Shown here piece after piece: positions 6,105 through 35,728 of a stretch of DNA of 64,000 nt (positions are counted from its first letter, which is position 1; every line of letters starts with the position of its first letter). Location of the stretch: NCBI GenBank assembly GCA_002786025.1, contig NHNW01000016.1, forward strand, positions 496,001-560,000. Direction: 5' to 3'. This stretch comes from Zasmidium citrigriseum (Eukaryota; Ascomycota; Dothideomycetes; Mycosphaerellales; Mycosphaerellaceae). The position numbers were made by a program, and so were the translations under genes. The notes beneath the pieces are model-generated. The model saw only the letters and a list, made by a program, of their open reading frames with translations. It made no database searches and was not told the DNA's origin.

Positions 6105-7307
6105 ATGGCCAACAACGGCGTCAAAGCGGCCATGATCAGTGGCGACAGCGCTGGCAATGCAATCAGCGCCGAACCTAACCACATTCAAGCACGTGCATCC
6201 CTAAGACAAGAGGTTGAGGCCCTCATCAAGCCATACCGAGACTCAAAGCAGAAGCCGCCGTTCTCAGCAGCAGAGATGATCATTATGGCCATCATTTGCG
6301 GAGAACAAGCATCCTACAACATGTGGCAGCTACTCCGCATGCTCTTCGCGACTTACCCCTACTACGAGCGAAGGGCTCTCCGACGCTTACTACGTGAGGT
6401 CGACGACTGGGGGAGACTCCATTATGATCACGATTTCGAAGACGGCCTTCATACGTTTATTCCTGGATTCCATGAAGCATTCTGCAGCCACGAGGTCCCT
6501 ATCGCCAGACATTCAGACTCGGATCTCAAGGCAGACCGGGGCTGTATGAAGGATGTCATGTGGACCGTTACGCCCACAGCGGCGCGGATCTTTCTCGAAA
6601 CCCGGCTGTACGGTCCAAGACAAGGCACTTTCCCCTTCTTCAAGCTCTCCGCAGAACTGCGCAACACCATATATGAGATGGTTCTGTGCTTTCATCAAAC
6701 GAGCATCGCCATTTGTTCAGGAGAATCAGGGATCCACCACCATCCCGAAGACAAAGAGCCACAGACGGACAATTCCGACCCGTGCGAGGAGGACTATGTC
6801 TACCAGAGGGTCCTGCACTTCGATACCACAAGCACGACTTCTCTGCTCCATGTCTGCAAGCAGACGTACTCAGAGGCGATGCCCATTTTGTACGGTCAAA
6901 ACGTCTTCAACATCTCCTCTTTACCCCGATTCCATGCCATGAGCACAGCCCGCAACCCATCCGCAATCAGCCAAATCAGACACCTCCGACTGTCTCTTCC
7001 CACCAGTCTTGACAATCTTCTGTTTCTCGAAGATGTGGCCAGCAGCCTTGCTTCTCTCGAGAAACTCAAGAACCTTTCCCTGTCCATGTACCGTGAGAAG
7101 GACTTTCTCCACCATCTCAAGCGTGAGAGCAAGTTCAGCAAGATCAAGCAGATACCTGGGTACTTGGATCTGGCGAATGCGGCTGCCAAGGCGGAGGAGT
7201 TTGAGATTGAGGGTGATTGCCCCAAGACTCGAAAGTTTTTCGGTAAGGAGATCGAGAAGATCAAGTCCGGTGGGAAGCTGAAGTTAAATGAGAGCAAGAA
7301 GCGATGA
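6105..7307 (+). CDS. fork-head-like/2EXR paralog A
   Basis: A single exon of 400 residues from the ATG at 6105. Residues about 40-90 (KPYRDSKQKPPF, then MAII, then FATYPYY) follow the spacing of the first half of a fork-head winged-helix domain (KPPY, MAI, WI, FPYY). The second half, with the DNA-recognition helix, is not recognisable. Residues about 175-194 (FFKLSAELRNTIYEMVL) are the F-box-like 2EXR signature. The segment SLLHVCKQTYSEAMPILYG matches the usual follow-up of 2EXR proteins. The C-terminus is Lys-rich. It is the most divergent of five tandem copies and lacks the CxxC..HxxxC cluster seen in copies B, D and E. Function unknown; a substrate-adaptor or nuclear role is only inference. 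Confidence 0.8.
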   Translation: MANNGVKAAMISGDSAGNAISAEPNHIQARASLRQEVEALIKPYRDSKQKPPFSAAEMIIMAIICGEQASYNMWQLLRMLFATYPYYERRALRRLLREVDDWGRLHYDHDFEDGLHTFIPGFHEAFCSHEVPIARHSDSDLKADRGCMKDVMWTVTPTAARIFLETRLYGPRQGTFPFFKLSAELRNTIYEMVLCFHQTSIAICSGESGIHHHPEDKEPQTDNSDPCEEDYVYQRVLHFDTTSTTSLLHVCKQTYSEAMPILYGQNVFNISSLPRFHAMSTARNPSAISQIRHLRLSLPTSLDNLLFLEDVASSLASLEKLKNLSLSMYREKDFLHHLKRESKFSKIKQIPGYLDLANAAAKAEEFEIEGDCPKTRKFFGKEIEKIKSGGKLKLNESKKR

Positions 7308-7843
7308 AGGAAGTCGAAGCAGAAGGCTATCGAACACGAGTAGGGCGTGGGAGGAACTTCTGAAGTGAGGGAGACGGGTCGATGGAATTTGGGAGATGTT
7401 TTGGCAGCTTTTACACTGAGACTGCATTTGCTGCTTTCCATTCACAATGATACTCCGGCTTGGACTTGAGAAGCTGGTAAGTCTAGAACTAATATTAAAG
7501 TGGGTTTCCAGAGAGTTCGAGACGCCATTCGTCCTCTCCTTCCATTCACTTCCTGCGCGAGTTAAGCTTTTGGGAAGTGACTAGCGCTCTGGCACTTTCC
7601 CGCGTCGCACTTCATCCTCTCCACCTTAACTAGACGCGAGCATCCATTGCTCTTGCACTTCGTCTTGCCACCCCACACGAGGGGCATCAATCATGCTTCA
7701 GCACATCGCCTCTTTTCCGACCTCGAAGCACTCGGCACCCCTCTCGGACGTCTGTCATCTCGTTCTGCTCAAGTCGGCAAGCATCTTCGAGCAAGGGAGT
7801 CCATTCAGCTGAGTTCCTTGTGCAGTGTTCTGGGGTCTCCGCC
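7308..7843. other. intergenic between paralogs A and B
   Basis: No gene is seen. The stretch is pyrimidine-rich towards 7530-7640 (repeated cacttc steps), as expected of a fungal promoter and leader for copy B. Confidence 0.5.
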
Positions 7844-9073
7844 ATGACGGACACCAACTCATCAGACCTGCCAGTGGCAAAGGCCGGCAGCGGCGATAAG
7901 AAAGCAATCGATCAGAAAACGGACAAGGAAATCGCAAAGAAGAAGCTACAGAAGTCCAACCGTCTTCTTCGAAAGGATGTCACCGATGCGATTGCACCGT
8001 ATGTCAACAGCCGGAAGAAGCCACCATTCACTGCGGTCGAACTTGTGGTTATGGCTATCGTCAGCCATCCTGACAAGTACGTCAGGGACAATGAGATTCT
8101 CGAGTGGATTGTCGACAAATTCCCGTTCTACACCAGGCTGGCTGCTTTCGAGTACGCCAGGAACTATCTTGAAGTCGACAGTCCGAACCGTCAACAGGAG
8201 CTATGGCCTCTCGCCATGATTCTCGATGGAGCTGAGGAAGGATTCAGCAAGCTCTTCGAAGACTACGACATACCCATCACCTCGATGACCGACTTCATGA
8301 GCAACGAGTACCCGGAGCCCGTGCTTCGCACTATCTACCCCGACGCTGCCCGAGTGTACCTGCGTCGAAGGCTCGAGCCTGAGAGACAGGGCACTTTCAG
8401 ATTTCTCGACCTGCCAGCGGAGCTTCGCAACCGGATTTACAGCTTTTCACTGGTATTTCCCGAATCGAATGTCCATTTCGTGGACCAGCTTGTCTTGACC
8501 TGCCCTTCGTGCGACGAAGAGAAGTGGGGACAGGGGCATGCGTGGTATTGCACCCAGGGGTCATCTAGTCGAGAAGCGCACATGGTGGGATCTCTCTTCC
8601 GTGTCAACCGACAGATCTTCAGCGAGGCGATGCCCGTCTTCTATGGTATGAACAACTTCATGTTCCCCGAACTCGCTCTGTTCTGCCTTACGAGATCCAT
8701 GTCTGCTCGTGAGCTGAAGCACGTGGAGAGGCTCACTGTGCGCTTAGACTGGCGGACACTCTCTTACACCATCAAGTCACTGCAGTATGTCAAGGCGCCA
8801 CTTCACAATCTCTCCTCGCTCAAAGAATTCACTCTCATCATCGATGACGAGGATTGGATTTCAGATCGTCGGTTTCAGTCGTACGAAGAGATGACCGAAC
8901 TGCAGTGTTTCTTCAAAGCCGCAGCGGCCGCCAAGAGTCTCAACGTGCGCACAAGTGACCGCGAGAGCAGCTGCAAGAAGTTCGAGGCCTTCATCCAAAA
9001 GGGAATCAAGCAAATCAAGTCTCAGTCCCAGAGCAGCATCACAGAGGAAGCGGATAAGGTTGAAGGAGATTGA
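7844..9073 (+). CDS. fork-head-like/2EXR paralog B
   Basis: A single exon of 409 residues from the ATG at 7844; an earlier in-frame GTG is ignored. This copy shows the family best. Residues 59-96 read KPPFTAVELVVMAI, then NEILEWIVDKFPFY, closely following the fork-head consensus for helices 1 and 2. Residues 183-199 hold GTFRFLDLPAELRNRIY, the 2EXR core. Downstream, CPSC and GHAWYC (about 218-238) form a possible CxxC..HxxxC metal site. RVNRQIFSEAMPVFYG and a C-terminal Lys/Gln-rich helix end the protein. No transmembrane segment or signal peptide is seen. It lies on the same strand as copies A and C, with about 0.5 kb spacing. Confidence 0.82.
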   Translation: MTDTNSSDLPVAKAGSGDKKAIDQKTDKEIAKKKLQKSNRLLRKDVTDAIAPYVNSRKKPPFTAVELVVMAIVSHPDKYVRDNEILEWIVDKFPFYTRLAAFEYARNYLEVDSPNRQQELWPLAMILDGAEEGFSKLFEDYDIPITSMTDFMSNEYPEPVLRTIYPDAARVYLRRRLEPERQGTFRFLDLPAELRNRIYSFSLVFPESNVHFVDQLVLTCPSCDEEKWGQGHAWYCTQGSSSREAHMVGSLFRVNRQIFSEAMPVFYGMNNFMFPELALFCLTRSMSARELKHVERLTVRLDWRTLSYTIKSLQYVKAPLHNLSSLKEFTLIIDDEDWISDRRFQSYEEMTELQCFFKAAAAAKSLNVRTSDRESSCKKFEAFIQKGIKQIKSQSQSSITEEADKVEGD

Positions 9074-9722
9074 AAGATCAACTGAATGCCGGAGATCTTG
9101 CGGTGTGTGGAGAGAGGACCGAGAGCGACGAACACAACTGCGGACAGAGGTGGAAGGGAAAGGCGCAGCAAATACTGTCGAACGTGGTCGTTTCACGACA
9201 TGAAAACATCAAGCGTATCCGCAAGTGTGTTCAAATGCCAGAGATCGTACGATTCTGTTTGCACTCTGTAAGGCTCAGAGGGCAATGTTCGAGCTACCTT
9301 GACAAGCAGATCAGACGCAGGGCTTCAGCATGAACACAATTGAAGTCGTACGGCCATGCTTTCATTCTAGTCTTCACTTAATTCTAATCTTCAGATGTAA
9401 TTTGGTGTAGTCTGTGAGTCACTCGTACCTGCCTTGTTTGTCGTCCGCTCCGACTTAAGCTTTCTTCATGTGACTGCCAAGCCGCGGCCGTTTGACTCGC
9501 GGCTTCCAAAGCCCACTTCCACCTCCTTCCACCACTTCTTCCACGCAAAACTCCAACTTCTTCTGCCAGCCGCAGCGCCTTCGATCTGCTCATCCGTCAA
9601 ACAACACCGCTGGTCGCACCTCATCGCCGACCAACGACACACCACTGGCGCTCGACTGCGACCGCTCAAACTAGCTGTCGACACGAGATCCACGACAGAC
9701 GTCCGCCACACTTCCAACTATC
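9074..9722. other. intergenic between paralogs B and C
   Basis: No gene is seen. The last 200 bp are C- and CACTTCC-rich, resembling the leaders of other array members. Confidence 0.5.
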
Positions 9723-10934
9723 ATGTCTTACGCCGACTCTGGCATCGAATTGGCGTCTGATGATGCCGACGCACTCGACAAGGCCGAGTTGCAAGCCGTC
9801 ATCGAGGCCCGCCGGCCGCTGGAAGAGGAGATCCAAGCAGTCATCGCGCCATATCAAGATTCCAGAGAGAAGCCACCTTTTACAGTTTTGGAGCTGGCTG
9901 TCATGGCTGTGATATGCAGTTGCAAGGAGTTCAACTCCGCGACCGAAGTTCAAGCATGGATTGTGCGATCCTTCTACCACTACAAAAACCTTGCTGCGGA
10001 AGAGTACCTCCAAAAATTCGTATCCTGTTCCGACTACGAAGATGGTCTCGACATGGTCATCGTGGGACTGCTCGGCGCATTCGAGCACTTCGATGTGCCT
10101 TTTGTCACGGGCCTGCGCCACTCCGATGACGGATCACAGTGTACGCACTATTCTATCAAGCCGAGTGTAGCTCGCCTGAGTCTGAAAAGACTACTGGAGC
10201 CACAGCGTGACGGCGAGTTCAGATTTCTCGACCTACCAGCAGAGCTTCGCAATCGAATCTACGAAATGACTGTCAACTTCTCTGACGCCGACTCCGACCT
10301 GGTCGTCAGAGACAGACGCCAAAACCCGAACCACGTCTTGGTTCATCACCGAGCATGTGGAAGATCTCGTCTTGAGCATCAGCAGCATTGGCCCGATTGG
10401 AGAAAGTGCCATAGGGCGTTCTCTCGAATAGGTCTGTCGGACGTTCATTCCCTCTTCTTGACTTGCCGGCAAATCCATCGCGAGACTGTACCGATATTCT
10501 TCGCAGAGAACTTCTTCAGCTTCGACAGTCCAAACTCTTTGGATGTTGCCTTGAGACGCATGTCTAGTCGGCGAACGCGATTTTTGAAGAAGATAGCTGT
10601 CGACATGCGTTGTTTCTACGCCTCTTCGCCGTCAACGGAGTACGCCAAAGGCTGGGATAACTTACCACCGCTAGATGAGATGTTCATCATCTGTGATGAA
10701 TGGTCTTCGGTCGCTGAAGAGATGAGGTTACATCGCTACAAGTCTTGCGAGGATATTCCCGAAGTGATGATGTTGGTGAAGCATGCAGCGCGAGCGAAGA
10801 AGCTTGTGCTATGCTCAAAAGACATCGAGGAAGCGGAAGACATCGAGGACGCAACCAGGTTTGAAACCGTTCTTCGGGATGCAGTTGAGTGGGAAAAGAT
10901 GCTGCTTGAGGACGAGAAGGAGCAATTCGAATAG
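9723..10934 (+). CDS. fork-head-like/2EXR paralog C
   Basis: A single exon of 403 residues. It begins with a short acidic leader, then ARRPLEEEIQAVIAPY and KPPFTVLELAVMAV (about 50-63), with VQAWIVRSFYHY (about 76-87) in the fork-head-like position. Residues 166-180 (FRFLDLPAELRNRIY) are the 2EXR core. The CxxC..HxxxC pair of copy B is replaced by a His/Arg-rich stretch (about 195-225), so the metal site, if real, is lost here. A second conserved block reads LTCRQIHRETVPIFFAENFF. The C-terminus is acidic. Third of five tandem copies. Confidence 0.8.
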   Translation: MSYADSGIELASDDADALDKAELQAVIEARRPLEEEIQAVIAPYQDSREKPPFTVLELAVMAVICSCKEFNSATEVQAWIVRSFYHYKNLAAEEYLQKFVSCSDYEDGLDMVIVGLLGAFEHFDVPFVTGLRHSDDGSQCTHYSIKPSVARLSLKRLLEPQRDGEFRFLDLPAELRNRIYEMTVNFSDADSDLVVRDRRQNPNHVLVHHRACGRSRLEHQQHWPDWRKCHRAFSRIGLSDVHSLFLTCRQIHRETVPIFFAENFFSFDSPNSLDVALRRMSSRRTRFLKKIAVDMRCFYASSPSTEYAKGWDNLPPLDEMFIICDEWSSVAEEMRLHRYKSCEDIPEVMMLVKHAARAKKLVLCSKDIEEAEDIEDATRFETVLRDAVEWEKMLLEDEKEQFE

Positions 10935-12029
10935 CGAGTGACGCTTCCCCTGGAGGAACCGAGCCCGTCTCGATGCAGCGAGGATGCTGTTTGAAGTTGG
11001 CACTACGGACGATTACGTCAAACTTGGTCGACTCGTTTGATATCAAGCACACATGTCACAGGGCCGACTTTGGGATCGAAAGGCTCATGTGGTCTGAAAA
11101 GGAACGCACATGCGTGATATTGGAGTCGCATGCCACGAAAGGCGAACGCTTCGCTCGATGAATGTGGCGGCTTCTATACTGGGTTGAAGCAGGCTACAGA
11201 AACAGAGAAGTATAGTACAAGCTCAGACAACCTTACTCTCCACCTTACATCGTCATGGACATATTAGCAATCCAGAGATGGGATAAGTACGCTACGTAAG
11301 GCTGCGCCTTTCCGAGTGGGCCTCACCAACCGAATCCGTGCTCTACAAGATCCACAAATAAAGCTTGACCGTGCACGGCAGAACTTTGGTCAAACGTCAG
11401 ATTCTGAAGGCCGTTGTTCATCCAGCAATCTTGACTACGCATCTTGCGTGACGGCTTGCGTGCCCCTTGAAAGCACTGGTCCGATGAGCACGTATGCCTG
11501 TACGTTTCCAACGAATGCCAGCAAAGTGGTTGCTTGAATGGAAGTGACTGCTAGCAGAAAGGTGCTTGAAACAATCGTACTGCTAGATACTGAATACAAT
11601 TCAATCTTCCTCTCGATAAGGATAGCTTTACTGCAAGGACATCATTGATGCATTTCCGAGTTCCAAAATCATGGAAAGGACGCATATCTGGACCGCAGCT
11701 TGATGCAAGGCTACAGACGACTGAACTCAACTAAAGAGGCGGAGCATTCCAGAATAGCCCCTAGGCCGGAGCCCCGTCGTCGGTAAGACGACTACATGAT
11801 TGCAACACAATGCCAAGACGGGTATCATGGAGCTTCATACGTTGACAGCGTCGTACACACCTCCACGAGCAGCTGACCGCCGAGCGGAGGGCAAAAAGTG
11901 CAAGTATAAGTTATAGCCCTCCATCGCACGAGATTTGTCTCAAACAATCACAACACTCATTGATCTCTTAACACCTTCATCGACAAAACCTTCTTCTAAT
12001 ACATTCTTTGTTTCCACAAAACATTCACC
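10935..12029. other. intergenic, about 1.1 kb without a supportable gene
   Basis: Only short open frames without motifs are present. The right end is the promoter of the secreted proline-rich gene, with a TATA-like site at 11905-11915. Confidence 0.5.
11905..11915 (+). promoter_or_regulatory. TATA-like element of the proline-rich secreted gene
   Basis: The sequence tataagttata lies 115-125 bases before the ATG at 12030. It is a plausible core promoter in an otherwise GC-balanced region. Confidence 0.35.
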
Positions 12030-12671
12030 ATGAAGCTCTCCGCCCACGCCATCGCCGCGATTCTCGCCTTGAGCCCGGTCTTCGCCTCTCCCATCCGCGC
12101 TGGAGTTGGAGCTGATGTCGGACTCGACGACGGATCTCTTTTGAGAAGAGACGTCCCCGCTCCTGGACTTCCTCAGAAGAACGATGGCCCAGTGCCTCCA
12201 CCACACAGTCCTCAAGCCAGAGACGTTCCACCACCCCAAGACGACAAAAAGCCGATTCCGCCACCAGGCCCTCAAGCCAGAGATATTCCGCCGCCAAAGG
12301 ACAACAAGCAGCCACCTCCACCTGGACCACATGCGCGCGACGCTCCACCGCTCAAGGACGACAAGAAGCCGGTCCCGCCTCCTGGACCCCAGGCGAGAGA
12401 CCTGCCGCCACCTAAAGACGACAAGAAGCCCGTCCCTCCACCTGGCCCCCAAGCTCGAGACGCTCCACCACCAAAAGACCCAAAACCTTCGATTCCAAAG
12501 GCACCATTGCCTGGTCAACCAGAGGCTCGAGACGTCCCACCTCCAAAAGACGCTCCCAAGCCGGAGCAGCCACCTGTTGGCCGACCGCAAGCTCGTCAGG
12601 TCAAAGGTGGCGAGCCGTTGCCTGCTCCCAAAGGTCCAGCACCTGGAAAGGATGCTCCAAAGGGTATTTAG
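12030..12671 (+). CDS. secreted proline-rich tandem-repeat protein
   Basis: A single exon of 213 residues. The first 20 residues (MKLSAHAIAAILALSPVFAS) are a signal peptide. A dibasic site, LLRRD, follows at about residue 40 and could be cut by a Kex2-type protease. The rest is six to seven copies of a roughly 20-residue unit of the form PPPKDDKKPVPPPGPQARD, with the residue after ARD varying (V, I, A, L). It contains no cysteine after the leader. Such a protein should be extended and extracellular, perhaps wall-associated. The gene interrupts the 2EXR array between copies C and D. I do not recognise a named family. Confidence 0.75.
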   Translation: MKLSAHAIAAILALSPVFASPIRAGVGADVGLDDGSLLRRDVPAPGLPQKNDGPVPPPHSPQARDVPPPQDDKKPIPPPGPQARDIPPPKDNKQPPPPGPHARDAPPLKDDKKPVPPPGPQARDLPPPKDDKKPVPPPGPQARDAPPPKDPKPSIPKAPLPGQPEARDVPPPKDAPKPEQPPVGRPQARQVKGGEPLPAPKGPAPGKDAPKGI

Positions 12672-13243
12672 ATCCGACATTGCGCTCGGTCAGGAGGGAC
12701 CGTTCAGGGAGGAGGTCGTATGGATGATGGTTGTAGGAATAGCAATTGGGGTTTCATTCTGTATGTAGTCACTCGCTTATAATTCAAACTTCAAGAGTTC
12801 AGTATCGCACTGGAATATCACAATGGTAGAAGTTCCGGTCAATGTTGTTTCGTTGTGATGTTGTGCTCCGCAAGAAGTCTGACGAACATTCACTCGCCAT
12901 GGGCGGGTGACTCCGCGGCAGAATTTCGGCGATCCTGGGGGTCACTTCCACTTCCCTCGTCTTTGAGAAGCTTCCAGGTTCGCACTTCCACTCACTGAGC
13001 ACCAAAGTTCTTTCAAATCTCGCGCAACAAGCCCGCTCCAGTTCTCTGCTTGTCGCAAATCAGTCGGCCGTTCGACACTCACTCGAGCGCCCTTAATTCG
13101 TCGCCACACACTTACATCCCAATCTACCACCCGTGAGCAGCGGTTTGAGAAAGCCAGCCTCCACAAAAAAGATGCCTTGAATACTTACCGGAAACAGCCC
13201 AAACAACTTCTCAGGCTCGGCCTCGACTGAAACGCCCGACAAC
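12672..13243. other. intergenic, promoter of paralog D
   Basis: It carries the conserved element at 12914-12949, described separately, and no gene. Confidence 0.5.
12914..12949 (+). promoter_or_regulatory. conserved upstream element, copy before paralog D
   Basis: A 36-bp block beginning cgcggcagaatttcggcgat and ending gtcacttcc recurs at 15056-15091 upstream of paralog E, with 33 of 36 bases identical, including the first 20. It lies 330 bp before the start codon of D. It could be a retained promoter element or leftover of the duplication. Confidence 0.5.
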
Positions 13244-14629
13244 ATGGCTTCCCAGTTGGCCCAGAGCATTCTCGAGGATCCTTCACAAGCAACAGCGCAG
13301 TGCTCCAATGATGAAATTCGCGCAGACATCGACTTCAGTCAGGGCTCGGCGGCAGAAGGAGCAGCGTGCGACCCAGACTACATCGACTCCGATCATGAGC
13401 CTGATCGAGATTTCGAGTCAGACGGTGACGCCAATGAATTATCATTCGGCCGCGAGGAGATTGGGGCTGATGTACGGACATCTGAAGCTTCCGAAGAGAA
13501 CGAAGGTGTAGACTCCGTCGAGTCGTCCAGCCAGGCTCAAAACGCACTTCGACAAGTTCTCGAAGCTCGACGGCCGTTGAGAGAAGAGATCGAAGCTGCA
13601 ATTGATCCTGACTTCGACGACGCAAATGCTATCGTCTGCGAGGGGACCGCTATTGCGGCTATCATTTGCAGCGAAAAGGAGTTCATCACCGAGAACGAGA
13701 TGTTGCAATGGATATCTCGGACGTTCCCTTGCTTCCACGACATACCAACGGACTTGAAGCTACCCGATGATGCACAGGAAGGATCAAGAATCTCTCCGTT
13801 TGGCCCAGGGTTGAACTACGACGCTCCGTTCATCATCAAAGATGAGACTGAAGAGGGGGGAGAGAGAACATATTCCATCGACCCTTCCGCTGCTCGTATA
13901 TGCTTGCGCAACATACTCGAGCCTCCAAGAGAAGGCACCTTCAGGTTCCTGGATTTGCCAGCCGAGCTCCGGAATCGAGTGTATGAGCTTCTACTCAATT
14001 TCTCGGACTCCCAGATTGTGTACTTCAGTCACGATTGCTTAGTCCTAGCGTGCCGCGCATGTGCAATCAAGGACGACAAGTCTATGAACCACGCTCTGTG
14101 CTGTCCGGACAACTACAGCAGCGGGTGCGCAGCTGCGACAGCACCTATGTTGGTATCCCGGCAGCTCTACAACGAAGCCATGCTGATCTTTTGGGGCATC
14201 AACCGATTCACCTTCACCGTTGTGGAATTGGGTCATCTGTTGACAGCTCTGTCCAACGATACGGCTCGGAGGATCAAGACATTGCATGTGGCGATTGACT
14301 GGGCCAAGACCAAGGAGCAGTTTAGTGCTGGCTTTGCAAAGCTCGAGAAGGTGCTCCATAAGCTGAGTTTGCTCGATGAGCTTGCCTTTACACCCTATGT
14401 CAGCGATGTCAATCCAGCGTGCGTTGAGGCACCGGGATCGGATTGCTTGGTCAAACTCGCCGCGGGGGCAAAAAGCATCAACTTCTACAAGTGCAGTGGG
14501 CAAGAAGGCGAGCAACTCCAGAAGTTTATCAAAGATGGTCTTGGGAAATTGGAATTGGATGGCCGGATGGCCGAGGGCAGATCGGAGAAGGAGGAGACAG
14601 GAAAGGCCGAAGATGAGGGCACTGAATGA
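13244..14629 (+). CDS. fork-head-like/2EXR paralog D
   Basis: A single exon of 461 residues. It has an acidic, disordered N-terminal extension (about 1-100) not found in A-C. ARRPLREEIEAAI (about 108-120) begins the shared domain. The KPPF motif is lost, but AAIICSEKEFITENEMLQWISRTFP (about 138-162) keeps helix 1/2 spacing. FRFLDLPAELRNRVYE lies at about 233-248. CRAC and NHALCC (about 268-287) give the CxxC..HxxxC cluster. SRQLYNEAMLIFWG follows. It is closest in architecture to copy E. Function unknown. Confidence 0.8.
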   Translation: MASQLAQSILEDPSQATAQCSNDEIRADIDFSQGSAAEGAACDPDYIDSDHEPDRDFESDGDANELSFGREEIGADVRTSEASEENEGVDSVESSSQAQNALRQVLEARRPLREEIEAAIDPDFDDANAIVCEGTAIAAIICSEKEFITENEMLQWISRTFPCFHDIPTDLKLPDDAQEGSRISPFGPGLNYDAPFIIKDETEEGGERTYSIDPSAARICLRNILEPPREGTFRFLDLPAELRNRVYELLLNFSDSQIVYFSHDCLVLACRACAIKDDKSMNHALCCPDNYSSGCAAATAPMLVSRQLYNEAMLIFWGINRFTFTVVELGHLLTALSNDTARRIKTLHVAIDWAKTKEQFSAGFAKLEKVLHKLSLLDELAFTPYVSDVNPACVEAPGSDCLVKLAAGAKSINFYKCSGQEGEQLQKFIKDGLGKLELDGRMAEGRSEKEETGKAEDEGTE

Positions 14630-15336
14630 CTTGTTAGACTTTGGTATCGTGGGCGAGTGTTGTGCAAGTCAAGTCAGAGCATTGAAGAAAGAATCGGGTC
14701 AAACAGGGTCAAGTTAGAGGAGAAATCCCCAGAAGCTCGTGGTAATAGTCACATAGGGCTTTGTGGTCATTGCTCCGAGAGCTATGTTGGTTATTCCTTA
14801 CCGTATCTTGATGTTACGCTTCCTTAAATGTCTTCGTGACGATATCGAGGAGGGCTGATCGTGCATTTGCGCTAGCATGTGATTCGTACAGGCGAGTGAA
14901 TGAAAGCGATCCGGACACAAGATCCTTGCATCCATATTTAGTTGCATTCGTCACTGGCCACGCATCTGGTAGAATACGAATAGATGTCACGTCCCGAACG
15001 TGATATTTGTTGACACGTCCTTTGTTCATCACCTGTGACGAGTGTCAAGTAACTTCGCGGCAGAATTTCGGCGATGCCGGGCGTCACTTCCCGCTCCTGC
15101 GCCGTTCATAACTCCAACTCCCCTCTCAATCGCACGCCCACATTCCCGTCAAGGCTTCACGTCGACAAGCTCACACTTCCCACTCTGGTCATTCGTCCTT
15201 CCAAGTCCCAGCATAATCGGCGCTCGTCCTCCACTGTTGGTGCCAGATTCAAGGCATTCTTGTGGGCTCTCGACTGCAGCTTGTGCTCAAAACCAAAGTC
15301 ACGGCCATCTCAACACCTATTCGGCCTCGACCCGAC
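14630..15336. other. intergenic, promoter of paralog E
   Basis: It contains the conserved upstream element at 15056-15091. Frames open into the start of E use non-ATG codons and are not annotated. Confidence 0.5.
15056..15091 (+). promoter_or_regulatory. conserved upstream element, copy before paralog E
   Basis: Second copy of the 36-bp block found at 12914-12949. It sits 281 bp before the chosen ATG of E. Confidence 0.5.
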
Positions 15337-16827
15337 ATGGCCGATCTCCACGCCTTGCGGTCTCTTCAGTCAGAGACAGCGCTTTCTGGAACTGATAGTC
15401 GCACGAACGACTACCCTATTCAGACTCTCGAGATGGACGATGACTCTAGAGACCACCGTCAAACAGCCATAGTAGCCAACGAAGGGTCCGGAGAGGATGA
15501 GACTGAATCCGCGGCCGACGCTGGCCAGTCCTCGCCCGAAGTCGACGAGATTATGGATCAGTCATTCGCCGAGGACGAGCCCGGGAGTGAAGACGAAGAC
15601 GCCTCTGGGGATGGTGATGTGGACCTCGAGTCGAGCCAAGATTCTGCCAGTCAAGAGGCAGACGATACAGATGGCTCGAAAGAAGCGCCTCTGGAGGCCG
15701 CTGTCGCTAATGAGGCTGCACTTCAGGCAGAGAAAACACTCGCAGCACTAATCGAGGCTCGTCGCCCGCTCAGAGAAGACATCGAGAATGCCTTGGAACT
15801 TCATCGCAGCGAGGGCTGCGAAGCTTGGTCTAACAACTCACTCATTGTTATGGCGATCATCTGCAGCTCTAATGAGTATGTCACGGAAAGCGAAATACTG
15901 GAATGGGTGTCGGAAAACTTCCCATTCGAGGAAGAACCACCTCTTGGAAGAACTCACTTGCAGATGCCACCACCAAACTACGACATACCAATTTCTGCTA
16001 AGATCAACCACAGTACCGGAGACCGAAGCTACACGATAGACCCTAAAGCGGCTCGTGTAGTACTACATCATGAACTCGAGGCCGAAGCGACAGGACCATT
16101 CAGATTCCTTGACTTGCCGGCCGAGCTGCGTAACCGAGTCTACGAGATGTTGTTGCACATTTCGGACTCGCAAATCGAGCCGCTCAACTCCATACCGAGC
16201 TCCGTTTCTTTGCTGGAGTGCCGCTCATGTGCTCGTGGATACACGCCGGAAGAGCAGAGGACAGAGTCCAAGGGACACGCATGGTACTGCAATCGAGATC
16301 CGTACGCAACGACTTTCTGTCGTGAACTGGTCGCACCCATTCTGGCTTGCCGTCAGATGTACTCCGAGGCAATGCCACTGATGTACAGTATCAATCAGTT
16401 CCGCTTCAAATTGAGGGATCTCAATCTGGCCTTGTCTGGAATCACCGAGAACCAGTCAAAACATCTCAAGAAGTTTCACATAGACCTGGGAGGAATGTAT
16501 CGTATGGACGAGTCGAGAGCCAGCCTTCAGGTGAGCCACACGAAAGTTGACAAGATCTCGGATCTTGACGAGCTTGCTCTTGCCGTAGCAGAATATGACT
16601 GGCTAGTCATGATCGGGTCTTACGAAACGATTCCAGAGCTGGTATGCTTGGCCAAGATGGCAGCCGCGGCCAAGAGCTTCAAGGTCTACGGACTTGATGG
16701 AAGAGATTGCCCCAAGTTTGAAGCTTTCATCAGCAACGAGGTGGAGAAGCTGAAATCGCAAGCTTCAGTTCGGGCAAGCGGCCCAGCAGATGGAGCAAAA
16801 GGGGATTACCACCAGATTGCTCTGTAG
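15337..16827 (+). CDS. fork-head-like/2EXR paralog E
   Basis: A single exon of 496 residues from the ATG at 15337; the frame is open further upstream but has only a GTG there. The N-terminal 130 residues are very acidic. ARRPLREDIENAL (about 141-153), VMAIICSSNEYVTESEILEWVSENFPF (about 171-197) and FRFLDLPAELRNRVYE (about 255-270) mark the shared domains. CRSC and GHAWYC (about 287-310) form the CxxC..HxxxC cluster. CRQMYSEAMPLMYS and FEAFISNEVEKLKSQ complete the family pattern. Last and longest copy of the array. Confidence 0.82.
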   Translation: MADLHALRSLQSETALSGTDSRTNDYPIQTLEMDDDSRDHRQTAIVANEGSGEDETESAADAGQSSPEVDEIMDQSFAEDEPGSEDEDASGDGDVDLESSQDSASQEADDTDGSKEAPLEAAVANEAALQAEKTLAALIEARRPLREDIENALELHRSEGCEAWSNNSLIVMAIICSSNEYVTESEILEWVSENFPFEEEPPLGRTHLQMPPPNYDIPISAKINHSTGDRSYTIDPKAARVVLHHELEAEATGPFRFLDLPAELRNRVYEMLLHISDSQIEPLNSIPSSVSLLECRSCARGYTPEEQRTESKGHAWYCNRDPYATTFCRELVAPILACRQMYSEAMPLMYSINQFRFKLRDLNLALSGITENQSKHLKKFHIDLGGMYRMDESRASLQVSHTKVDKISDLDELALAVAEYDWLVMIGSYETIPELVCLAKMAAAAKSFKVYGLDGRDCPKFEAFISNEVEKLKSQASVRASGPADGAKGDYHQIAL

Positions 16828-17980: not shown

Positions 17981-19076
17981 TCACATGAAGAAGCCCAAGC
18001 CCAAGAGAGCCAACCCGCCAACGGCCCATCCAGCAACTTCACCTCGGACGCCAGCGCTATCGGTCTGCTGCGGCGCTGGATACCACGGAACAGTACCATT
18101 GGTGCCGTTTGATGGAGCCGGCACAGTTGGGTAGACCGGCGGGATGCTTGGAGTCGAAGACCAAGAATCTGTAATGACGGGAGGATAGCCCGTTGGCCCC
18201 GTTGAAGTCGACGACCAGGAATCCGTGATGACTGGTGGATAGCCAGAAGGACTAGTTGGAGGAGAAGACCACGAGTCTGTAATGACGGGAGGATAGCCGG
18301 ATGGGTGGTCTGGAGGGGTTGCCGACGAGTCAGTGACAACGGGAGGATAGCTAGGCGGTCCACTTGGAGAAGACGGCTCTGGAGGGTAGCTGGGCGGCCC
18401 GTTTGGAGAAGAAGACTCTGGAGAATAGCCGACAGGGCCGCTTGGAGTGGAAGGCCAAATCTCGCTGGTCCCTGGAGGAGAGTATGGCGGTGGAGCAGGA
18501 GGCGATGAAGTGGTAGACTCCGAGGAGACTGAGTCGTACGGCGGCGGCGGAGGAGGCACGGCCGAGGACGAAGGACCATATCCAGCAGGAGAGCCAGGAG
18601 CGCTTGAAGGGCTCTGTGGAGGAGTCGTGGCCACTGGACCCGACACCGGTGCTTCTGAAGCATTAGCGCCACACTCGGACAAAGTCGAGTCAAGGGCGCA
18701 GCAGCCGACGTCAGTGCAGTAACTGTCGGCAGGGCAGATATCTATCGACGCAAACAGATCAGCGATCGTTGCTGCTGTCATCAGTCGTAGCACACATACT
18801 TCCGCTTGGGCAGCATTGTTGGCCTTGGCCCTGACCGAAGCAAGTGATTTCGCCTTCCTTGTCAGTAGCTGGTTGGCAGAGGTTGAATCCAGGTCCGCAG
18901 GAGGCCTCGCAGAAGTTGGGGGCGCTGGTCGGAACTGTCGTACGAGTGCAGAATACTGGAAGTGTGTAGACGGGATCCTGGCGCGGGAGCAGAACGTCCA
19001 TGCGCTGCCCGTAGAGCTGCTGGGAAGCGAGTGCCGCTGGTAGAGCCGCAAGTGCAATGGAAGCTAAGGATCGCAT
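17981..19076 (-). CDS. GPI-anchored Cys-rich/Pro-Ser-rich cell-surface protein
   Basis: Exons 19076-18800 and 18741-17981, with a 58-bp intron, give 345 residues. MRSLASIALAALPAALAS is a signal peptide. Residues about 40-125 hold a cysteine-rich head (patterns FCEASCGPGFNLC, QQCCPSG, then CTDVGCC), and the intron falls inside it. Residues about 140-300 are Pro/Ser/Thr-rich, with about four repeats built on GYPPVITDSWSS. NGTNGT gives N-glycosylation sites. The C-terminal hydrophobic run (GWAVGGLALLGLGFFM) fits a GPI-anchor signal. It is likely a cell-wall or plasma-membrane surface protein. The cysteine head is not one I can name. Confidence 0.78.
18130..18400 (-). repeat. coding tandem repeat, about 57-60 bp units
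   Basis: Within the GPI-protein gene, units containing tgacgggaggatagcc recur about every 57-60 bp, with small changes. They encode the GYPPVITDSWSS-type repeats. Confidence 0.65.
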
Positions 19077-20571: not shown

Positions 20572-21753
20572 ATGGCGGCATTGGTCGCTGCTCTCGACGG
20601 CATGAACGACGCCACCGCCTCCATGTTCATCAAGCTGCAGCTGCTCGACATCCACACTTCAGAAGCCGAGAACCAAATCATCCAAAATGCCGGCCAGTGG
20701 GACAACATGATCGCCATGCAGGAGTACGCCAACGAGCTCCAGCAGTACCGCACTCGTCGTGGTCTCCCACTTGATGAGTTGCCCGTCCCGAAGCCACCGA
20801 CCAAGAACGCAACTCCGCCAGCTCCCGAACCCGTTCGCATCCCGCAAGGAGTCTGCCTGGCATGCTCGGATCAGATGCCACTCGCCGAGCTGTACGAGTG
20901 TCCCTGCCCCCGAGATCCCGCACCTCACCGCTGGTGTGAAGAATGTCTGGAGCATCTCCATCGAGCTGCACTCACCGACGAGACACTCTATCCTCCACGT
21001 TGCTGCCAGCATGAGTTTCCCTTCGGTTACATCAAGACGTACTTGACTCATCGGCTCATCGATGATTTTGAGGACAAGAAGGAGGAACTTGATGATACCA
21101 ACCGCATCTACTGTCATGTGCCGACCTGCTCGGCATACATTGGTGCGGAGCATCGGGAGGGTACGTTGGCTCATTGCCCGAATGAGCATGAGCCCACGTG
21201 CATTATGTGCAAGGCCGTCAAGCATGAGGGTGATTGCAAGGAGGATGCTGGTCGATTGCAGGTTGAGGAGACTGCGGCCCAGGAGGGCTGGCAGGCGTGT
21301 AGTGATTGCAAGGCGATCATCGAGCTGAACACCGGCTGCAACCATATCACGTAAGTGATAAATTCCGAATCCGAAGCAAAGCTCAATGCTAACCACATGA
21401 AAAGGTGCCGCTGCAGCCACGAATTCTGCTACGTCTGCGGCGCAGACTGGATACCGAAGACCTGCCCGGAAGCCTGCCCCTGCCCTCAGTGGAACGAGCG
21501 TCGCCTTCTGGATCGGGCTGCAGACGTCCACCAGCGGGAGGGAGGTCGAGCTGGAGATCAGCGCGCTGTGGACGAGATGGCTCGACGTCTTCGTGCCAAC
21601 CATGGCTGCCCTCGGGGTCGCCACGGCTGGCAGTGGACGAACCAGGGCGAGTTCCGGTGCGATGGATGCGGCGATATGCTCACGCGATTCATCTTTCGCT
21701 GCCGCGAGTGCCACACCCAGAACTGCTATCGGTGCCGGTACAACCGGAACTGA
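20572..21753 (+). CDS. RBR-type E3 ubiquitin ligase
   Basis: Exons 20572-21350 and 21405-21753, with a 54-bp intron, give 375 residues. RING1 spans about 95-145 (CLACSDQ to PPRCC). The IBR domain spans about 181-222 (CHVPTC, HCPNEHEPTCIMC, GDC). RING2 starts at about 243 with CSDCKAIIELNTGCNHITC. Its Cys at about 256 sits where the catalytic cysteine of RING-HECT hybrids lies, and the intron splits this motif. After RING2 comes an extra Cys-rich tail (FRCDGCGDMLTRFIFRCREC to the end). RBR ligases pass ubiquitin through a thioester intermediate. Substrate unknown. This two-exon form is a common layout in filamentous ascomycetes. Confidence 0.9.
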
Positions 21754-31340: not shown

Positions 31341-33166
31341 ATGGCCTTTATCATACGAGCATTGTCGGGTCTGTTCTGGACGGCACAGCAAGAGACTACA
31401 CTTCCCCAAGAAGATACCTCAGGCACTGCAAATTTACCGCCAGGTCCTCCTCGCTCAGGCCACGAAAGCACGAATCCTACGGAGCCCGAAGACTATCCCA
31501 AAGTATTCAAGCCTGATCGGACCAAGCTAGTATCGAAGAAATGCTATGTCATTCCTAGGTCTCGCTTTCCGCCACATGAGCTTCGAGACCCCGAGAGGTT
31601 TGTTGCTGCTCTACAGCAAGCCGCCGAGATTTGCACGATTGCAGAAAAGGTCGAATCAGAGATAAAGGATCTCCACGAAGGTATCATGTATCACCAGTGT
31701 CTTGAAGGTCTTGCCCAGACCGAGGTACGTGTGCGAATATTTCAGATCGTTGCGGCAAAGTTCTCATGCATAGACTAGCTAAGACGTCTTTCTGACAAGT
31801 CCTGTCCCGTACCAAAAGAGGCCATTCAAGGTCTCGAATCCGAAATTCAAGATCTGCAAGAAATGATCGAGGGCGGAGATGGCCTACTCCAGCACTTGGA
31901 TGAGGCGAAAGCCAGACACAAAGAGATCAAGGTGGCCCAACTCTTGCTCATGCGCAAGATTCTTCGGGGCAGCCAAGAGCACATCGACCGAAGTAGAGTA
32001 TCTGGGATGATTGGGACACTTCATGTTACACCAGCGCTCTGTCGGGAATTTACATATGCACTCGACTGTAAGCCTCAAACAAGTGCTTCTTTATGTAGCT
32101 GTTGAACGCTGACATTGCCCCCCCAGTCGCTGTTCGTACAGAACGTGCTGCCAGAAGGCGCCAAGCCGCCTGGGCTCAATACCGCAGAATCCGAGACAGT
32201 CCTGTGCCGACAAGTTCCGGGAGATTTGGCCGGCAAAGGGACCTCGAGCATCTGGGAAGAGAGAAGAGAGAAGCAGAAGCCGAATACAAGCGATCGATGT
32301 ATCTGCAAGGGGTTCATGAACAGATCGAACAACAAAAGCAAGCATCCTTAGTGAGAGACAGAATTCTGCCAGCCTTATCAGACGCCGACCTGCTAAACAC
32401 CGTCCTGATATCACCATCGCTCGTGTCGCCCGCAAAAGCTTCGTCGGGTGCCAGCCTTTCCCCTATTCAAAGACGGTCTGACGGCCAAAGTCAGAATACC
32501 ACAGAAGACATCGGTAGGGAACAACAGCTCATAGCGGATCTAAATGGTGCCCAGGACGAATATCAACAAAACGTTGACAGACTCGAGACTTTCCGAGACT
32601 CGCATGAAACGGAACAGGTACATTACTTGGCTACGTACACAACCGCGACTATGGAGGATTTTGAGGCATACGCAAACCAAATGTATGGAGCGCCTTACGA
32701 GGAGCTTTGTGCCATGGGAGAGCAACGTATCGAAACAGCTAGGCAATCGTTGGAGCAGGCAACTACTCGCGCCCTTGAGGCTGGCCTTCAGCTTCCAACC
32801 ATACCACCCCCCGAAGTCGAGAGGCCAGAGTTCAATGAGAAAGCAGGACGTCGGATACGAAAATACCTGCGAGGCGTCGCAAGAGGGAAAGACCAGTCGT
32901 ATGCGCGGGAATCAGCCTTGCTACCTTCTGGTAGTCCTGTCCGTAGTCAACGGAGCGGCATTTCAGATGACAGATCTGCACGCGCAGCCTTGATTAGGGA
33001 GTATGAGCCCAGGAGAGCCGCAATGCGTGTCGAAGCCGTAAAGGAGCAGAGGCGACGGAAGAGCAAGATGTGGACGGATCGTATCAAGTATTCCAGGAGG
33101 GTATTAGCATTGCGAAGCCCGACTCAGGATCTTGTGCCAAAGAACCCCTGGGCGGACGATGATTAG
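31341..33166 (+). CDS. coiled-coil tandem-family protein, copy 1
   Basis: Exons 31341-31724, 31779-32067 and 32127-33166 (introns 54 and 59 bp) join in phase to 570 residues. The intron positions match copy 3, which supports the model. The N-terminus is MAFIIRALSGLFW. The family motif DPERFVAALQQAAEI lies at about 88-102. Long charged helices follow, then SLVSPAKASSGASLSP. A basic C-terminal region includes RRIRKYLRGVARGKDQSYA, LLPSGSPVRSQR, LIREYEPRRAAMRVEA and LRSPTQD. It is predicted mostly coiled coil and is not membrane bound. Neither the family nor its function is recognised. It resembles copy 3 more than copy 2. Confidence 0.75.
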
Positions 33167-33720: not shown

Positions 33721-34000
33721 TTTGTGGATGCCGAAAAGGTGGTGGCTTGGATCTGAAATCTCAAGTTACCTTGTCATTGTCTCACAAGGGAGGAGAACGC
33801 AATAAGACAAAGCATGAGCCGCAAGCATCGTGATCCAAATCGCGTGCGTGTCCAGGGCTGCATCTAGGTAGATAGATAGAGACACTACTGTGTTCATGTT
33901 AACCCCTCCCCCGCTTCATATCATTCTCATTGGACAAACATCGCCATTAAGCAGCGCAGTGCGGTTTGGAAGTTTGGCAAGCCCTGGCGTCGATTCGCGA

Positions 34001-35728
34001 ATGGACTACTTTGTCCGACCGGTGGCACGATTCTTCGCCTCGCTCGCTCAACCGATCTACAATGCACCGTCGGAGATATCGAACGCGGAGTCCACTGTCG
34101 GGCGTGATGCCACGGTGGAGAATCAGCCAAGCAATGTCACTGCACATCTACCACCTAGAAGGCCGGACGTTTCGTCCTCTTTGAGTGACCCAGGCAAGTT
34201 TGTGGTTGCCTTGCAAAGAATCGCGGAGCTCTGGTACATCATTCGCTCTATGCAGACTGAGATTGACAATCTCGTGCATCGTATTCGATACAACTACGAA
34301 CAGTTGGATATGCTGTCTGTTACTGTAAGTCACAGTGAACGAAGTCGAAGAGAAGCACTGACGCGAAAGCAGTTACACCGAATAAGTCGAAGAACAAATG
34401 CCATCTTGGAGCAGGAGATGAAGTCGACAGAATCTAAAATCAGAGAACATGAATCGACTTTGCGGGGTGAAGATGGATTGATCGCCAGGCTGGAAAAAGC
34501 AGAGGTCAAAAAGAGGCGCACAACGATATCAGCGCAGACTCTATTTCGGAGCATTTTTCAATCTAGCCAAGCGATCATTGAGGCACAACGAGAGAAGGAC
34601 ACAGCTCCCCAGATGACTATCGATCTCCAGACTCCATTTTGGCTAACGCTGATCAACGTAAGAGAATGCGCCCTCCGACTCACGAGGGAAGAGGACAGAT
34701 ACACTGCACTTCTTCGGACGTGGTTGAACCTAAGCAGTGAACTGAGAGCTGCAAAGAGGCATGGCGATGGCCACAACGACATGCAGGAGATCACGAACCT
34801 TGAAGAAGCGGAAAGGACAGCAGCGAATGAATTCAAACAGTGCGAGGGGACAATAAAACTACTTCGCAAAAATCAGGAGGCAAGGCAATGGGCCTGGGTG
34901 CGTTTAGATGTTGTTCCTGCTCTTTACGGAAGCAATCTGCTAAATACCACGTTGATACCCTTATCCGTGGTAGTGCCGCCGCCGGCTTCATCAGTGGCAG
35001 ATGTATCACCAATTGCAAAAGCTCATGAGCAAGGGACTGCTCAGAACAATGACACATTGTTGAGCGCAGCCCAGCGAGACTACGTTCGCCTGCGTGATCG
35101 GCATCACAAGATTGCGGATGAATTGCGAGCAGTGCCACAAAGGTATCGCGAAGGTCTTTCGAACTATGTGTACATCTACGAACGTGTAAGGCCGGAAGAC
35201 TTCGACAAGGTCTTCAAGAATTTCAGGGGGGAGAACTACGAGCAGATATGTGAACGGGGGAGACGAGTAAGCCAGAAGAGGGCCAGAGAAATGGAGGAAG
35301 CGAGGGATCGAGTCATCGCCGCCGGTCAGGAAGTGCCCCTGAGTCCCACGCTCGACAGCGATGACACAGGCCCAGACGATAATCTCCGTCGACGAGTGCG
35401 TAGGTACCAAAGGGATGTGGCTCGGGGAAGAGAGCATCACACAGCTCCGCGCACAAGTCCGTTGATTCGAACCAGCAGCTCCGTGCGGGATCGACGTAGC
35501 GACAGGAGCCCAAAGGCAAGCGCACGGGCGGATGAAATGAAGAGGAAATGGCATCCAAAACAAGAAGCTTTACGGACTGAGGCGATGAAGGAGTATAGGA
35601 GGCGGAACTTTCTGACTTGGCAAAGACGAATGAAATATCCGAAGAGGGGTGGTAAGCTAAGAAGTCCAACTCAGGATGCCCAAGCGGAGCAGTTGGAGCG
35701 GTTTAGAAGGTTTAGAGATGAGCCTTAG
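34001..35728 (+). CDS. coiled-coil tandem-family protein, copy 2
   Basis: Exons 34001-34324 and 34373-35728 give 559 residues. The 48-bp intron (gtaagt...gcag) is a multiple of three and open in frame, but its position matches the first intron of copies 1 and 3. The N-terminus is MDYFVRPVARFFASL. The motif SDPGKFVVALQRIAEL lies at about 61-76. A long helical region, NLLNTTLIPLSVV at about 285-300, RRVRRYQRDVARG at about 450-465, then EMKRKWHPKQEALRTEAMKE and LRSPTQD end the protein. The second intron of copies 1 and 3 is absent here. This copy is the likely source of the downstream pseudogene. Confidence 0.74.
   Translation: MDYFVRPVARFFASLAQPIYNAPSEISNAESTVGRDATVENQPSNVTAHLPPRRPDVSSSLSDPGKFVVALQRIAELWYIIRSMQTEIDNLVHRIRYNYEQLDMLSVTVSHSERSRREALTRKQLHRISRRTNAILEQEMKSTESKIREHESTLRGEDGLIARLEKAEVKKRRTTISAQTLFRSIFQSSQAIIEAQREKDTAPQMTIDLQTPFWLTLINVRECALRLTREEDRYTALLRTWLNLSSELRAAKRHGDGHNDMQEITNLEEAERTAANEFKQCEGTIKLLRKNQEARQWAWVRLDVVPALYGSNLLNTTLIPLSVVVPPPASSVADVSPIAKAHEQGTAQNNDTLLSAAQRDYVRLRDRHHKIADELRAVPQRYREGLSNYVYIYERVRPEDFDKVFKNFRGENYEQICERGRRVSQKRAREMEEARDRVIAAGQEVPLSPTLDSDDTGPDDNLRRRVRRYQRDVARGREHHTAPRTSPLIRTSSSVRDRRSDRSPKASARADEMKRKWHPKQEALRTEAMKEYRRRNFLTWQRRMKYPKRGGKLRSPTQDAQAEQLERFRRFRDEP

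Follow-up and report, generated by a model that had tools for sequence, protein, structure and literature searches.

Few eukaryotic DNA-binding domains are as well studied as the fork head, and an array of five genes in Zasmidium citrigriseum raises the question of what such a domain does at the front of an F-box-like protein body. The array lies in a window of 64,000 nt (NHNW01000016.1, positions 496,001–560,000; contig C57), i.e. the whole stretch of DNA analyzed, and coordinates are positions within this window unless another contig is named. An earlier note had described five same-strand genes joining the first half of a fork head to a 2EXR/F-box-like motif, and the list of open reading frames (ORFs) indeed contains all five at the places given, uninterrupted and on the plus strand, with lengths of 400-496 amino acids (aa); they are called copies A–E here. 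These proteins belong to a family in which a predicted fork-head-type winged helix lies directly N-terminal to the domain DUF7730, and which has so far been found only in Mycosphaerellales among the species-named sources. The fork-head sequence is kept in the N-terminal arm and in helices H1 and H2, and the DNA-reading motif has been lost from H3.

In copy B, the motifs KPPF, MAI, EILEWI and FPFY occur in this order and are followed by FLDLPAELRNRIY. The alignment of the five copies runs from an N-terminal helix LRxEIxxxI via KPPF-S/T-xxEL-x-VMAI and E-I-L-x-W-I to FPYY, and, after a variable stretch, via (D/E)-V/I-P and Y-T-I-x-P-x-AAR-x-x-L directly to FRFLDLPAELRNRIYE. The motif order and spacing noted before is therefore as described in copy B, but KPPF is gone from copies D and E, which have DANA (D) and CEAW (E) instead. 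A wing-strand-like motif, absent from the earlier account, precedes the F-box-like segment. The other copies of the array are 29-34% identical to copy B.

The Pfam model Forkhead matches copy B with 27.2 bits (cut-off 27; E 4.4e-6), the only copy of the array above the cut-off. Copies A (19.2 bits, E 0.0013, residues 49-90) and E (E 0.0018) are below it, and copies C and D, taken singly, gave no match up to E 10. An independent protein, P0013, exceeds both cut-offs, with scores of 28.7 for Forkhead and 48.5 for DUF7730. Among 24 aligned members, matches at E ≤0.05 were obtained for Forkhead in 11, DUF7730 in 24, 2EXR in 21 and F-box-like_2 in 9. A PDB search with copy B returned fork heads in 31 of 32 rows; the sole other row, 5a5u_B, is labelled eIF3B and was matched at the coordinates of the FOXA1 chain 8vfy_O. 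The profile search that had been proposed as a check likewise led to fork heads: of the 48 PDB rows that the 24-member profile gave at E ≤10, 42 were fork heads (best E 3.7e-8), one was 5a5u_B, again matched at the coordinates of FOXA1, and the other five had E ≥0.33. The fork heads counted here include the chains called Genesis, AFX, S12, hepatocyte nuclear factor 3 and interleukin enhancer binding factor.

A profile-profile alignment (hhalign) of the family, represented by 33 members, with seven fork heads reached 98.6% and covered fork-head positions 3-94 of 96. The first half of the family scored 72.9 against the seven fork heads, compared with a maximum of 17.1 in 50 column shuffles. The second half alone scored 16.9 and fell on the wing strand, whereas 200 column shuffles averaged 7.2 and never exceeded 12.3. 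A chance match of motifs is ruled out by the column shuffles together with the PDB and Pfam searches. The match to the first half of the fork head was thus correctly recognized before, but its restriction to that half had to be revised after the predicted models and the profile alignment, which appear to extend the resemblance into the second half.

The model of copy B predicts the full order of helices and strands H1-S1-H2-H3-S2-S3, and that of copy E predicts the same topology without H3. For both models the best VIA-align matches are FOX DNA-binding domains, and FOX structures make up 44 of the 50 listed matches for B and 47 of 50 for E. Of the five copies, the two modelled, B and E, thus gave a winged-helix prediction with the expected kind of top match, apart from the missing H3 in E. 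The predicted S2-S3 hairpin follows the variable stretch and leads into the F-box-like helix, beyond which four beta-alpha units are predicted in both models.

The recognition-helix half had been called non-conserved, and the DNA-reading motif is missing in every copy examined. The four patterns N..RH.LS, RHNLS, S[IV]RH and RH.LS, which we assume to represent the fork-head recognition helix, were found in none of the 44 block-bearing proteins (44 of 68 database proteins) and in none of the 14 copies of the genome itself. As a control, all seven true fork heads carry at least two of the four. H3 is the least conserved helix, with a mean entropy of 3.02 bits, compared with 2.53 for the H2 region and 1.90 for H1. 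Among the 33 members, 19 to 48 residues separate FPYY from the conserved proline, and the shortest stretches are those of copy E (19), Zasmidium P0012 (22), and copy D, P0003 and P0004 (30 each). From the arm onward, 27 of the 33 members have a negative net charge, one is neutral and five are positive, whereas the seven true fork heads range from +1 to +6. Diversifying change at H3 was also considered, but identity in 11 close pairs did not point clearly either way. Another worn fork head lies elsewhere in the genome: L013 (1318-1965, plus strand, contig C86) is a separate frame of 216 aa with a fork-head domain of 40.2 bits, a strongly altered second half, no RHNLS and no DUF7730 match.

The C-terminal part had been assigned to 2EXR proteins. 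DUF7730 (PF24864; cut-off 27 bits) is the correct name: copies A, B, C and E are above its cut-off, and copy D, with 20.7 bits, is below. The 2EXR model (PF20150) matches the LPAELR segment weakly in all five copies, with 16-23.6 bits versus a cut-off of 24.8, and this assignment was dropped. A true F-box is likewise not supported by the Pfam and PDB searches at the sequence level. The UniRef name "F-box domain-containing" is carried by five block-less proteins that were matched over the LPAELR segment (P0031-P0035). In the structure comparisons, no F-box structure appeared among the best 50 rows per list, rows that were mostly taken by the fork-head part, the DUF7730 body not having been searched alone. 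Some weak Foldseek rows, i.e. LegL7, NRC3 and tropomodulin, are presumably leucine-rich-repeat proteins; because of these rows and the four beta-alpha units in both models, a leucine-rich-repeat-like body may be kept as a lead. The genome contains at least 113 DUF7730 matches (matches, not genes). A subset of 30 loci from these listed matches was examined with a hidden Markov model (HMM) of the block, and 21 of the 30 had no block match at E 0.1.

The five copies share the same arrangement. Copy A (6105..7307, 400 aa) has its fork-head-like block at 6246..6608, with limits taken from the alignment to copy B, followed by a DUF7730 match of 62.4 bits at 6627..7001 (residues 175-299, Pfam). In copy B (7844..9073, 409 aa) the block spans 8012..8377 (model residues 57-178) and the DUF7730 match 8393..8782 (41.7 bits). 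Copy C (9723..10934, 403 aa) contains the putative block at 9864..10199, as delimited by the alignment, with 150 bits against the family block HMM, which included copy C in its training set; its DUF7730 match is at 10215..10604 (39 bits). Copies D (13244..14629, 461 aa) and E (15337..16827, 496 aa) both have long acidic N-terminal extensions. In copy D the block HMM, trained with copy D included, places the probable block at 13616..13924, where the recognition-helix stretch is shortened and contains a proline; the sub-threshold DUF7730 match follows at 13946..14305. In copy E the block is at 15811..16080, with H1, S1, H2, S2 and S3 predicted, no H3 predicted and a pLDDT <50 there, and the DUF7730 match at 16105..16482 has 35.8 bits. 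Copies C and D are separated by an unrelated proline-rich ORF (12030-12671, plus strand, 213 aa) which has a signal-like N-terminus, about six repeats rich in proline (ARDxPPPKD...PPGP) and no Pfam match up to E 0.01.

In the genome of the array (44.4 Mb, 148 contigs), residues 1-195 of copy B, used as a query, matched 17 places, i.e. 14 genes, two of them matched twice, and the true fork head of the genome on contig C72 (E 1.8e-4). The 14 genes comprise the five of the window, two pairs and one distant single copy on contig C102, and four in a row on contig C73. Contig C94 holds two weaker or broken traces, L040 and L051; in L051 (C94:89030-89440), two in-frame TAG stops interrupt the DUF7730 match and the block is reduced to its later part, and this locus looks like a decayed copy. 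Block-bearing relatives are found in Cercospora zeina, C. kikuchii, Zasmidium cellare, Recurvomyces mirabilis, Teratosphaeria destructans, Elasticomyces elasticus, Hortaea werneckii, Meristemomyces frigidus and Saxophila tyrrhenica. All nine belong to the order Mycosphaerellales, a range that holds for species-named sources only. In one predicted protein of T. destructans, P0042 (849 aa), a fork-head-like block with a DUF7730-like part behind it occurs twice; this may be either a genuine double protein or a fusion in the gene model.

A tree was calculated from 56 rows, made up of the 14 copies of the genome and 42 block-bearing database proteins; of the 44 such proteins, P0042 and P0061 were left out. 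The C102 copies group together (100/99), as do the C73 copies (98/98), to the exclusion of the other clusters, but each of the two groups encloses a database row (P0053 and P0064). Copies D and E form a pair (100/93), Zasmidium P0012 stands weakly beside them (95/30), and copy A lies outside a branch (99/97) that holds B-E and the C102 copies. The five copies of the window require two changes on the tree, with a single origin in none of 200 bootstrap trees, so that one recent tandem burst is not supported. Local duplication, which had been proposed for the whole array, is therefore well supported for the D/E pair alone, but not as one burst, given the low identity to copy B and the position of copy A. 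Because copy A is outside the B-E/C102 branch and database rows nest within the clusters, the layout is old, and local duplication accounts for part of the clusters only.

What the block does is less certain. As a whole, the reading that a fork head was fused to DUF7730, lost DNA recognition and is now the protein-contact module of an adaptor has, in our view, nearly an even chance of being correct. The fusion would have taken place in an ancestor within the order, and one event is the simplest reading because the aligned block-bearing members have an identical layout. DNA recognition would have been lost, and the block would then offer a protein-contact surface beside the F-box-like body. A putative turn of the winged helix to protein binding fits the data, since the DNA-reading motif is lost in all copies examined, no H3 is predicted in copy E and the block is mostly acidic. 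The predicted F-box-like helix and the four beta-alpha units suggest an adaptor body: the fork-head part and the beta-alpha repeats would bind client proteins, and gene duplication and loss would multiply the clients. The LPAELR helix would join a partner such as Skp1 of an SCF ubiquitin ligase, the least certain step. Several results weigh against this reading. The second half of the block, where fork heads have the wing strand YWTLDP, reaches a probability of just 14% when aligned alone, a weak signal, and S3 (3.08 bits) is as variable as H3. In addition, F-box-like_2 was the only F-box model that matched, below its cut-off (<21.6 bits) in B, C, D and E and not at all in A, and the 24-member profile search found no F-box chain in the PDB.

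Alternatively, the block could serve the DUF7730 body only as a structural cap or spacer, maintained for stability and drifting at H3. This would agree with the entropy profile, in which conservation within the block is highest in the arm, in H1 and in the AAR helix next to the F-box-like segment and H3 and the loops drift, and with copy E, which appears to manage without H3 in its model. However, since many DUF7730 proteins are block-less (the 21 of 30 loci mentioned above), the body seems not to need it, and the copy B query found 14 genes with the block besides the one true fork head; we regard this explanation as somewhat unlikely. A winged helix that still binds DNA, through a different surface or at a different sequence, and recruits the DUF7730 body to chromatin is also unlikely, although the predicted fold is retained, five of 33 blocks are net positive and a pattern resembling a nuclear localization signal, K[KR]x[KR], occurs in the last 70 residues of nine of the 33 members, two of which belong to the C73 cluster of Z. 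citrigriseum itself. The carriers are P0006, P0007, P0008, P0011, P0015, P0021 and the copies at C102 19.5 kb, C73 40.5 kb and C73 44.2 kb; none of the five copies of the window has the pattern, and its distribution may indicate that the family is split in cell location. The absence of the DNA-reading motif from all 44 database proteins and all 14 own copies, the 27 net negative blocks and the lack of a predicted H3 in copy E argue against DNA binding. Convergence of a winged helix of other origin on a fork-head-like form could account for the weak second-half signal and for the PadR, Sir3 and MukF rows in the structure lists, which we assume to be other winged helices. It is nevertheless very improbable, as the first half of the block resembles fork heads specifically in sequence (the first other PDB row, 5a5u aside, has E 0.33) and the genome's true fork head is itself matched by copy B.

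The fork-head part of the fusion reading is proposed as a protein-contact module by analogy with the F-box A2 proteins of Caenorhabditis, the closest published precedent in the literature consulted. These proteins are reported to have acquired a transposase helix-turn-helix that showed no transcriptional role and was proposed to serve as a platform for protein binding; gel shifts detected no binding to Mariner-like repeats, two tagged members had no nuclear location, and helix-turn-helix parts tended toward more bound proteins than C-terminal parts, while subtle transcriptional roles were not fully excluded by its authors (PMC12062965). Both cases would join a helix-turn-helix to an expanded F-box or F-box-like family with a proposed contact role, but the nematode domain is Mariner-derived and not a fork head, and its partner is a true F-box in animals (PMC12062965). 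A wider proposal is more tentative: the fork-head domain would have become the variable protein-recognition module of expanded F-box-like adaptors across a fungal order, independently paralleling the Caenorhabditis capture, and the recognition helix would have been discarded in one sub-lineage (D, E and perhaps Zasmidium P0012). Together with the nematode case, this would suggest repeated uptake of helix-turn-helix folds by F-box-like families for protein contacts. A natural series that keeps the fold without the DNA-reading helix would also show which parts are needed once DNA binding is dropped, and the at least 113 DUF7730 matches make the family a lead for a large uncharacterized gene set in this one genome.

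Compared with the fork-head domain of FOX factors (PF00250), the family shares the KPPF arm, the H1 and H2 sequence and, in the B and E models, the predicted fold, but it differs in the missing recognition motif, the variable length of the H3-S2 stretch, the mostly acidic charge and the fusion to DUF7730. The pairing is already visible in databases: four UniRef entries have names beginning with "Fork-head domain-" (T. destructans P0042, S. tyrrhenica P0054, E. elasticus P0059 and P0063). All four have a block HMM match and a precomputed DUF7730 match, but these are machine names only; other family members are named DUF7730. Among the papers listed in the literature searches, none mentioned DUF7730, none was seen to describe its pairing with a fork head, and the single paper on 2EXR in fungi looked unrelated from its title and opening lines. 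The claim that no such family had been described accordingly holds for this literature, but not for the UniRef names.

Several other ORFs of the window were noted. About 3.7 kb from the array, an ORF at 20572-21354 (plus strand) has an IBR domain (25.3 bits, Pfam cut-off 24.3) and is perhaps part of an RBR-type ubiquitin ligase. Two neighbouring ORFs (32297-33166 and 33896-35728, both plus strand) lack Pfam matches up to E 0.01; they have a stretch R[RK]YxRxVARG in common and could represent tandem copies that have diverged. On the minus strand, a serine/proline-rich ORF (17981-18781) with GYPPVITDSWSS repeats and a hydrophobic tail resembles a surface protein.

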